From assembly GCF_009467825.1 (NCBI RefSeq), contig NZ_WIOK01000026.1, positions 1 to 64,000 on the forward strand: 64,000 nucleotides of DNA, read 5' to 3'. Numbering within the stretch: position 1 is the first letter of the stretch; each line of letters begins with the position of its first letter. A model generated the notes under the pieces. That model was not told the DNA's origin, ran no database searches, and was given only the letters and a program-made list of their open reading frames with translations. Made by a program: the position numbers and the translations under genes. Source of the DNA: Cyclobacterium xiamenense. GTDB lineage: Bacteria > Bacteroidota > Bacteroidia > Cytophagales > Cyclobacteriaceae. Of the stretch, positions 30,341 to 47,635 are shown one piece after another.

Positions 30341-30793
30341 CTAATCCATTTTCATTAATTCCTCCACAGGCCGCCTGGGGGTATTTGGATCATTGCCTTT
30401 CTGCGATTTGGCGGATCGCTCCGTCGCGCCGGCTTTATTGAACTTAGACACGGTCAATTCCACGTCTGCACCGGCTTCGATCCCAATTTTTTCGGAACAA
30501 ACCGTACCCTTCATTGTAGCTTCCGCCGTAAAACGTGCCAGGCCCTGGATGTACAAATCTCCAAGAACTTCACCCATGACGCAGATTTCGGAGGCGTGAA
30601 TATCTCCCTTTACTTTTCCCGAAACACCTACAATTACCTTTTTCTTGGTCACGACATTGCCACAAATATCTCCTTCGATCCGGATATCACTCGTGGCCTC
30701 TATATCTCCTATGATCGATAATCCTGGAGCAAAAACCGATGTTGCACTAGCCATTTCCATTTCTTCCTGAATTTTTCTTTCCTTGGTCCACAT
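30341..30793 (-). CDS. Bactofilin-family cytoskeletal protein 1
   Basis: A 150-residue bactofilin (DUF583 family). The central right-handed beta-helix core is seen in the run of short strands (GLSIIGDIEATSDIRIEGDI, VVTKKKVIVGVSGKVKGDI, ASEICVMGEVLGDLYIQG), with a disordered C-terminal tail. Bactofilins polymerise without nucleotide into filaments used for cell shape and envelope organisation. A second, longer copy is encoded at 45050-45616. This copy is on its own, convergent with the trans-sulfuration gene and separated from yifB by 141 nt that contain a possible -7 element (30873-30880). Confidence 0.88.
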   Translation of the reverse strand: MWTKERKIQEEMEMASATSVFAPGLSIIGDIEATSDIRIEGDICGNVVTKKKVIVGVSGKVKGDIHASEICVMGEVLGDLYIQGLARFTAEATMKGTVCSEKIGIEAGADVELTVSKFNKAGATERSAKSQKGNDPNTPRRPVEELMKMD

Positions 30794-45049: not shown

Positions 45050-45616
45050 TTACCAGGACCTGGGGAAATCCAGTGGGTCATTGTTGTCGCCGGATTCCGT
45101 GGAACTACTTTCCTTAAACGAACGAAGCTCCGCCTTGGAAATGGGCTTTACCGGGACATCCTTCTTTTTAGACGTTCGATCATCCAGCATGGAATACAAT
45201 TCTTCCCTACTAACAGAGTTGATTTTACTGGATTTTGAAGCCTCTTCTACTGCTTTGGGATCGACCACCTGGATTCCACTGTTGATCTGCGCTCCTTTGT
45301 GAATAAAAATAGAGCTGGTAATGATGTTTCCGGAAACCTTTGCGTCTGCGTAGATGGTGGTTTCTCCTTTGATATACAAATCACCGACTACTTCACCGCT
45401 GATGCTGATTTCCTCGGCAATAATATCCCCGGTAATCGAAGCCTTTTCTCCAACGACTACCTTTTTGTCTGTTCGAATGCTACCTACAAGAATGCCGTCC
45501 GCCCGGATGTCACTTTTAGAGATGATATCGCCCGTGAGTTCAAAGCCAAGGGACAGTACCGTTACCTTGCCTGCATGGGGTTCTTCATTTTGTTGTTTGT
45601 TGGATCCAAATTTCAT
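45050..45616 (-). CDS. Bactofilin-family cytoskeletal protein 2 (operon with actin-like protein)
   Basis: A 188-residue bactofilin. The beta-helix core covers about residues 20-110 (GFELTGDIISKSDIRADGIL, TDKKVVVGEKASITGDIIAE, GDLYIKGETTIYADAKVSGN). A longer, charged C-terminal tail of about 70 residues (EASKSSKINSVSREELYS and beyond) is absent from copy 1. I chose ATG 45616; the extended frame to 45763 runs into the actin-like gene and has no bactofilin-like residues. It starts four nt after the stop of the actin-like gene and is followed by a strong terminator, so the two genes form a closed operon. It is likely the partner filament. Confidence 0.9.
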   Translation of the reverse strand: MKFGSNKQQNEEPHAGKVTVLSLGFELTGDIISKSDIRADGILVGSIRTDKKVVVGEKASITGDIIAEEISISGEVVGDLYIKGETTIYADAKVSGNIITSSIFIHKGAQINSGIQVVDPKAVEEASKSSKINSVSREELYSMLDDRTSKKKDVPVKPISKAELRSFKESSSTESGDNNDPLDFPRSW

Positions 45617-45620
45617 AGGC

Positions 45621-46649
45621 TCAATCTTCTTTTTCTTGTTTGAACGTAGTGAGAATAGTGGAGCTGTTACCCAGGTCCAGTCCAACCGCCTTATCCTTGG
45701 CCCCGCCACTGATGGCCAGACTGTTGTAACAATAGCCGATCGACGCCATCTGCTCCGGTGCATCGGGTACGTGGACGTTTAATAATCCATCAAATTCATC
45801 CCGAAATAAGTTTACCAATTCGGCATAATTGGCACCGCCACCTGCCAGGTAAAGATCTGCGGACTTTGTAAAATCACTATCCGAAAACGCTTTTCGCAAA
45901 GATGGGGAAATCACGTCGTTGTAATACTGCGTGATAACCTGCTTTCGCAGCTCTCTTAAGTCCAAACGCTTTCGGTTTAAAATAATTGTTCCTTCGCTAA
46001 AATACTGGTCGATCTGATGCTCGGTTTTTAAATCCAGGTAATTGTCCTTTTGTAATTCCCGGGTGATCAGGTTAATGGCGTATCTCAACCCAAACGTAGA
46101 AACGCTTGACCGCTGTACCAAACCTCCCTCCGTACTTAGAATGGCCTCCATGGTGCCGTATCCAAGACTGATCATGAAGAAGCTTTTTGGCGAATCGCTG
46201 TACATCTGCCTGACGGCCATGCTACAACCCACTACTTCGGGAATCACCGCTACGCGATCCACTTCCACGGCCATTTTCTTTCGACCTCCCCCGCCAAATG
46301 TCTGCGTATCGTACTCAATGATGTGCTCGTTTTCAAGCAGGCGATAGGCATTTTCCTTAAACACCTGAAAGGTGGAAAACGGAAACCCGGTGGTAACAGT
46401 AATGGGGCTACCCAGCTTTTGGGAAGCCAACAAAAGCCCCGCCTTTAAAAAAATACGGTAATCAATTTCTTCTGGTGAACTGTTGATGTTTCTGTGTGGA
46501 GAAGTCCCTTCAGAAAGTGCCAAATCTCCAACCAGGTAGCCAATGTTATCGTGGTAAATCTTAAGTCCGGAAACCAAATCCCTCGCAACGTTTCTAAGCT
46601 CAAGATTACTACTTTCCAATACACTGGGGTACTTTATTACTTCTATCAT
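45621..46649 (-). CDS. Actin-like ATPase with C-terminal phosphate-1 loop (apparent circular permutation)
   Basis: A 342-residue protein related to ParM/StbA actin-like ATPases. In normal order the fold opens with phosphate-1 (DxGxxxT), then phosphate-2, then the adenosine GGG. Here the adenosine motif (LAGGGANYAEL, residues 268-278) is followed by the C-terminal segment PEQMASIGYCYNSLA and then by AVGLDLGNSSTILTTF (residues 321-336), which is a phosphate-1 hairpin. The N-terminus begins IKYPSVLESS, which matches the strand that follows phosphate-1 in relatives (IFPSRW type). The phosphate-2 site reads SLGYGT (161-166), with Ser in place of the usual Asp. Upstream of ATG 46649 the same frame reaches a stop after about 20 codons without any phosphate-1 motif. 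The bactofilin gene follows after four nt. Confidence 0.8.
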   Translation of the reverse strand: MIEVIKYPSVLESSNLELRNVARDLVSGLKIYHDNIGYLVGDLALSEGTSPHRNINSSPEEIDYRIFLKAGLLLASQKLGSPITVTTGFPFSTFQVFKENAYRLLENEHIIEYDTQTFGGGGRKKMAVEVDRVAVIPEVVGCSMAVRQMYSDSPKSFFMISLGYGTMEAILSTEGGLVQRSSVSTFGLRYAINLITRELQKDNYLDLKTEHQIDQYFSEGTIILNRKRLDLRELRKQVITQYYNDVISPSLRKAFSDSDFTKSADLYLAGGGANYAELVNLFRDEFDGLLNVHVPDAPEQMASIGYCYNSLAISGGAKDKAVGLDLGNSSTILTTFKQEKED

Positions 46650-47000: not shown

Positions 47001-47008
47001 TAGTTTTG
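47001..47008 (+). promoter_or_regulatory. Candidate -7 element of the outer-membrane barrel gene
   Basis: TAGTTTTG lies 24 nt before ATG 47033. A TTTG at 46973-46976 stands 24 nt upstream, slightly too far for the consensus. Confidence 0.35.
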
Positions 47009-47032
47009 TACCAAACCAATACCTTCAAGCGC

Positions 47033-47635
47033 ATGAGACAAGTAATCCATATAAGTCTTGCATTGCTCCTACTTTCCCTCATTTCTGGAGAGGTTCGGGC
47101 ACAGGAGTTTTCTATTGGTCCCAAGATAGGTATTTCGCAAGGCAATATATCCGTTACCGGTAGCACCTTCTCGAAAGGGAACGAAAAACTGGGATATCAT
47201 GCGGGAATTTTTGCCCGCCTAGGAGGGAACCGGATTTTCATCCAACCGGAAATTCTCTACAGCAATACCGGGGGAGAATTTGAGCACCTGCAATCCAACA
47301 ATCAGGTTACGTACACTGCCAGTTTTGACCGAATCGATGTGCCATTGATGGCTGGGTTTAAGTTTGCAAACTTTTTCCGCATACAGGCCGGACCCTCGCT
47401 AACCTTCATTCTCGACAACGAATTGAGCACACAGGATCCTTTGCTTACTATTGCTTCCGAACCAAACACGACCACATTGGGCTACCAGGCGGGAATTGGC
47501 CTGGATATCGCCAACATGATTCTCGATTTTAAGTACGAGGGAGCTTTGGCAAACCACGTCGATTCCATTGCCGGACTTCCTACCGACCAGCGACAAAACC
47601 AATTGATCCTTTCGTTGGGGATTCGCTTGTTTTGA
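47033..47635 (+). CDS. PorT-like outer-membrane beta-barrel protein
   Basis: A 200-residue secreted protein. The signal peptide (LALLLLSLISGEVRAQ) is followed by a barrel of alternating strands, with IGPKIGISQGNISV near the start and LILSLGIRLF at the C-terminus, which ends with the aromatic residue typical of outer-membrane proteins. It resembles the outer-membrane beta-barrel family PF13568. I chose ATG 47033 since the longer frame from 47006 starts within the -7 element. The gene stands alone and diverges from the actin-like operon. Confidence 0.75.
   Translation: MRQVIHISLALLLLSLISGEVRAQEFSIGPKIGISQGNISVTGSTFSKGNEKLGYHAGIFARLGGNRIFIQPEILYSNTGGEFEHLQSNNQVTYTASFDRIDVPLMAGFKFANFFRIQAGPSLTFILDNELSTQDPLLTIASEPNTTTLGYQAGIGLDIANMILDFKYEGALANHVDSIAGLPTDQRQNQLILSLGIRLF

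Follow-up and report, generated by a model that had tools for sequence, protein, structure and literature searches.

The closest described relatives of the protein reported here are the ParM/ALP proteins, such as Dh-cParM1 (8x1i) and the ParM of C. botulinum (6izr, 6ixw), with which it shares the body of the fold, the order of the motifs that follow phosphate-1 (P1) and the GGG motif. In a sequence-profile search of the PDB the best match is 8x1i (E 3.3e-4), and with Foldseek the ParMs are matched at a TMq of 0.63-0.67. However, in contrast to ParM/ALP, the P1 hairpin lies at the C-terminus and phosphate-2 (P2) carries Ser instead of Asp, while the gene of this apparently permuted actin is chromosomal, stands beside a bactofilin gene and is absent from the plasmids searched. 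The archaeal actin homologue Ta0583 has the ordinary chain order, and its structures (2fsj, 2fsk) are the best Foldseek match to the permuted actin (6.6e-14). MreB has the actin fold in common with it (Foldseek match 4czg, TMq 0.56), but the same genome holds a separate MreB-type gene (421.6 bits), and the permuted actin falls below the MreB models.

A partnership between bactofilin and M23 peptidases is described in the accessible part of PMC10945521, and the present family resembles such operons in its bactofilin neighbour, with an M23 peptidase in the same gene run at two loci. My literature search, with most subscription papers outside its reach, found no description of an actin-like protein as the partner in a bactofilin operon and none of a permuted actin. 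Within that reach, this agrees with the first-pass annotation, which knew of no described permuted bacterial actin. The full text of the long paper PMC7203096 contains 'circularly permuted', MreB and ParM.

Gene and order of motifs

The window, i.e. the whole stretch of DNA analysed, comprises 64,000 nucleotides of a contig of Cyclobacterium xiamenense. The following features concern the order of motifs in the protein:

45621..46649, minus strand: gene of the actin-like protein, very probably circularly permuted (342 aa, ATG start, coordinates including the stop codon)
46614..46637, minus strand: N-terminal strand IKYPSVLE, residues 5-12, aligning with ALP_N from profile position 19
45642..45689, minus strand: displaced phosphate-1 unit, a C-terminal hairpin of residues 321-336 (strands as in the model; aligns with ALP positions 3-15)
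45657..45677, minus strand: P1 motif DLGNSST, residues 325-331 (D, G, N and T invariant, 33/33)

The protein matches Pfam ALP_N (PF17989) with 42.4 bits (1.1e-10), exceeding the curated cut-off of 26.3. The match begins at profile position 19, which corresponds to residue 5, so that the N-terminus lacks profile positions 1-18. IKYPSVLE (residues 5-12) aligns with PSVV of ordinary ALPs, the segment that comes after P1 in ordinary actins. The chain starts at the strand following P1 and ends, beyond the last helix and a short linker, with the P1 hairpin, an arrangement fixed throughout the family. Both ends had been noticed in the first-pass annotation, and the translated reading frame (DLGNSST at residues 325-331, C-terminal) and the opening of the ALP_N alignment (position 19, residue 5) bear this out; the roughly 20 upstream codons that it described as free of P1 are 19 codons from the preceding stop to the ATG, in which no P1 motif is present. 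Pfam MreB-like_C matches residues 163-275 at 1e-4, under its curated cut-off; the NCBIfam models gave insignificant matches only (10.5 bits for the MreB model, cut-off 293), and a PDB search with the single sequence of the permuted actin gave no match. The genome carries one copy of the gene. On the plus strand, at 47006-47635, lies a divergent gene for what, judged by eye, is a small outer-membrane beta-barrel-like protein, and this gene is kept upstream of the actin in Cyclobacterium, Pleomorphovibrio and Lunatimonas.

P1 is located near the C-terminus in all 66 distinct full-length open reading frames of the actin family, full-length denoting a profile match that ends at position 325 at least, a criterion which by itself favours tail-bearing proteins. 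A P1-like motif was observed in none of these 66 within the first 60 core residues or in upstream extensions, and in none of 41 loci within the three sense frames of the 400 bp upstream of the start. The homologues read thus share the permuted order, the point that the first-pass annotation had proposed to check, and a homologue with an additional N-terminal P1, named beforehand as an argument against permutation, was not encountered among the 66. In total, 68 reading frames of at least 60 aa passed the profile; the two that were set aside (L170 and L175) are fragments from the fragmented genome G953. Three further matches (genomes G877 and G1056) are contig-cut pieces of 53-55 aa, under the length limit, and eight matches from the host-family genome search, counted outside the 66, reach profile positions 339-340. 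D325, G327, N328 and T331 are each invariant in the family alignment A3 (33/33). Nine pairwise comparisons with relatives gave a pS of 0.77-0.90, too saturated for dS, and a pN of 0.02-0.08, and for the tail alone (residues 314-340) the pN in nine comparisons was again 0.02-0.08. Judged from these substitutions, the gene is under strong constraint, tail included.

When the last 24 residues are moved to the front, ALP_N is filled from position 1 to 148 and the score rises to 50.7 bits, compared to 42.4 in the native order, whereas three shuffled tails gave 42.3-43.1 bits and residues 201-224 placed in front gave 43.5 bits. However, the P2 segment placed in front also raised the ALP_N score, to 49.0 bits, and given the similarity of P1 and P2, this test discriminates weakly on its own. 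I also compared the family profile with ten ordinary ParM/ALP proteins. In the native order, positions 3-309 align to ALP 21-306 with a score of 142.5, and a second, weak alignment brings the tail, 320-332, to ALP 3-15 (score 21.2). The doubled family profile yields a single run of 320-651 to ALP 3-306 of 313 that crosses the C-N junction with a score of 153.2. The E-values are 1.2e-19 for the doubled, 1.1e-19 for the native and 3.1e-21 for the rotated profile, the first being no better than the second because of its doubled length. A rotation scan reaches its maximum at new starts 313-321 (153.1-153.3), and of five shuffles of the tail columns (142.4, 142.3, 142.3, 146.9 and 142.4) four fall to the unrotated score. 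When the family profile was compared with the PDB, matches in permuted order were obtained for several BiP chains, for instance 315-338 to 17-40 (1.6 bits), 97-179 to 146-236 (9.9) and 249-287 to 334-373 (4.6), each piece being weak. Taken together, the rotated, doubled, rotation-scan and PDB-chain tests show, as far as the sequence goes, a circular permutation, and the protein is very probably a naturally circularly permuted ParM/ALP-like actin; the corresponding reading in the first-pass annotation is supported by these profile tests and by the motif order of the homologues.

Bactofilin neighbour and active site

Four nucleotides after the stop of the actin gene, a second gene starts:

45050..45616, minus strand: bactofilin gene with a C-terminal Trp (Bactofilin Pfam, PF04519, 1.1e-20)

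A bactofilin gene is found downstream on the same strand in 48 of the 59 loci with distinct actin reading frames, in 43 cases within 250 nt (measured between the ends of open frames) and in five at 420-1209 nt. In the remaining 11 of the 59 loci, i.e. L039 (f1), three f51, three f79 and four f84 loci, no bactofilin is present within 1.2-1.5 kb, and when seven such genomes were searched in full, the single bactofilin detected was on another contig. At two f77 loci (L102 and L104), an M23 peptidase gene lies directly upstream of the actin, which is followed by a TPR gene and then the bactofilin; by eye, the genes after this run look like ATP synthase subunits. Elsewhere on the contig of the window, a second bactofilin gene (30458-30736, minus strand, L118; 71.7 bits) has no terminal Trp, and the genome shows five bactofilin matches in all.

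Most bactofilins that accompany the actin have Trp as their last residue. This holds for 39 of the 44 that are distinct, complete and located downstream; two others end in Trp-Ile and three in Phe. At L102 and L104, where one gene separates the bactofilin from the actin, the bactofilins end in RR and IK; they stand outside the 44 since loci with identical actins were merged, and their inclusion gives 39 of 46 with Trp. A terminal Trp is observed in none of 15 bactofilins not located beside a permuted actin, from the same genome and nine others (Fisher test, p 4e-10, a value too optimistic because related sequences are treated as independent). The tails do, however, differ strongly between families. 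In the f51 actins (L018, L019 and L020), which have no adjacent bactofilin, P1 is followed by a Pro- and Ala-rich extension of about 90 residues that ends in KFLKTGMW or KFLISGTW. The C-terminal Trp peptide of the operon bactofilins is a candidate docking signal, and the terminal Trp may be a docking peptide able to sit on either partner. A functional tie of the permuted actin to bactofilin seems fairly probable, and the actin would act together with its operon's bactofilin in the organisation of the cell envelope.

Three further features of the actin gene concern the nucleotide site:

46146..46169, minus strand: phosphate-2 loop SLGYGTME, residues 161-168, with Ser replacing Asp (S in 31, N in 1 and G in 1 of 33)
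46236..46238, minus strand: E138, invariant (Glu 33/33), where ALPs have a Gln/Glu following their IP motif
45834..45842, minus strand: GGG of the adenosine motif, residues 270-272 (33/33)

The phosphate-2 Asp is present in 10 of 10 ordinary ALPs (alignment A4) and in 0 of 33 members of the permuted family, while all 33 retain E138, E168, GGG and the glycines of P2. Neither this loss nor the bactofilin neighbour figures in the first-pass annotation. Work on actin and ParM ties this Asp to hydrolysis, and by extension from these proteins its loss should impair hydrolysis. With Ser in its place, the protein would bind nucleotide but hydrolyse it only slowly, if at all, and its polymers would be stable rather than dynamic. 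By analogy, reduced hydrolysis in the permuted actin is somewhat favoured.

Combining these observations, I lean towards a reading in which the circularly permuted actin is a slow- or non-hydrolysing scaffold coupled to bactofilin. Alternatively, the protein could be a pseudo-actin that does not polymerise and, locked to its nucleotide, serves as a platform linking bactofilin to membrane or wall enzymes, for which adaptors of the FtsA or PilM type provide the comparison. The loss of the P2 Asp in 33 of 33 would fit such an adaptor, as would the operon with bactofilin, which at two loci also includes genes for an M23 peptidase and a TPR protein. However, P1, E138 and GGG are invariant, and the polymerising ParMs and Ta0583 give the best matches in fold and in profile, so that I consider an adaptor of this kind rather unlikely. 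Tentative to a similar degree is a more specific form of the scaffold, in which the permuted, nucleotide-locked actin would co-assemble with bactofilin into a hybrid, the Trp peptide of the bactofilin docking and the actin of one lineage carrying the tail itself.

Predicted fold and the place of the hairpin

The structure was predicted with AlphaFold2 from the protein of the window, relatives from 14 of 16 loci and 14 of 21 ordinary viral ParMs; the latter inform the body of the fold, and their N-terminal P1 falls in gap columns of the window protein. The model (pLDDT 79.3, pTM 0.84) has a ParM/Ta0583-like fold, whereas an earlier model from 15 close sequences alone was poor (pLDDT 35.7, pTM 0.32). 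The last helix comprises residues 298-313 and is followed by strands 321-325 and 331-336, which form the hairpin, with block means of pLDDT 79; residues 15-27 and 118-120 have a pLDDT below 50. In the PDB, Foldseek ranks Ta0583 first (6.6e-14), then ParMs, then MreB and Hsp70, and in a viral library the best match is Gp506 of phage G. The predicted model thus has an actin fold (pTM 0.84; Foldseek E down to 6.6e-14), and as Foldseek aligns in sequence order, these matches leave the permutation itself unprobed.

A structural model with the C-terminal strands outside the P1 site had been named in the first-pass annotation as an argument against permutation. In the pTM 0.84 model the hairpin is formed, and its position in that site I infer from actin folds in general: both actin termini lie in the same subdomain, which is why the C-terminal hairpin would be expected to fold back into the P1 site of its own subunit, and with it in place the nucleotide cleft would be complete. 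Such an intramolecular insertion is likely. The hairpin could, however, be exchanged between subunits, completing the nucleotide site of a neighbour, and this strand donation would couple assembly to nucleotide binding. The hairpin does form a free end of the chain, reached through a short linker (the helix reaches to 313, the strand starts at 321), which would leave room for such donation, and the sequence tests do not distinguish insertion in cis from insertion in trans. Exchange nevertheless appears improbable, as the single-chain model reaches a pTM of 0.84 with a block mean pLDDT of 79 for the hairpin, and the linker measures only about seven residues.

Distribution and implications

A scan of species genomes detected 16 loci, 88-97% identical, including Cyclobacterium, Pleomorphovibrio, Lunatibacter and Lunatimonas. 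Whole genomes were also searched with either the single sequence or family profiles, in samples that overlap and with some of the matches being fragments. The permuted family was found in 4 of 295 genomes sampled from the class, in 44 of 295 from the host family and in 24 of 395 from the phylum, and in 24 of 195 and 5 of 197 genomes of a second and a third class. Full-length permuted actins come from ten families, and the genome counts point to a distribution that is wide but patchy. Three f96 genomes (G699, G743 and G945) contain two copies each, and those copies that were read are all permuted. With PF17989, a search of 198 genomes of the phylum, its sensitivity limited since the window's own gene was missed, gave matches in six, all starting at profile positions 16-21.

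The profile matches to ParM-type proteins could suggest that the actin is a plasmid-partition protein of an integrated element. However, a search of 72,556 plasmid records gave no match at E 0.01, and in viral contigs or phages no permuted relative was confirmed; the sole phage match is an ordinary ParM-like protein of 24% identity, from two records of one phage. The plasmid location of ParMRC is not found here, the gene lying on contigs of chromosomal size with a bactofilin neighbour, and this neighbour recurs across ten families. Together with the vertical-looking conservation within Cyclobacterium and its kin, this makes an origin in plasmid partition very improbable. Least credible of all is a truncation or frameshift of the gene model, in which an N-terminal P1 was lost or misplaced and the C-terminal motif arose by chance: the motif is short and nothing else speaks in favour, and I reject it in view of the C-terminal P1 in 66 of 66 reading frames, the 0 of 41 upstream regions with a P1-like motif, the invariant D, G, N and T (33/33), the one unbroken alignment across the junction and the low pN of the tail.

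The C-terminal P1 in all relatives read, combined with the usual bactofilin neighbour, suggests that the rearranged actin has been kept by evolution. A single fixed order of the chain is generally assumed for the actin fold, and a permuted form kept in many genera would mean that the P1 hairpin can come from the other chain end. As the first-pass annotation suggested, the new termini could change filament contacts. The permuted actin may serve as a natural experiment on the termini that filaments can tolerate, and it represents a family in which hydrolysis, with the P2 Asp, may be lost while the nucleotide contacts are kept. Finally, its operon tie suggests a direct link between actin and bactofilin in the control of bacterial shape.
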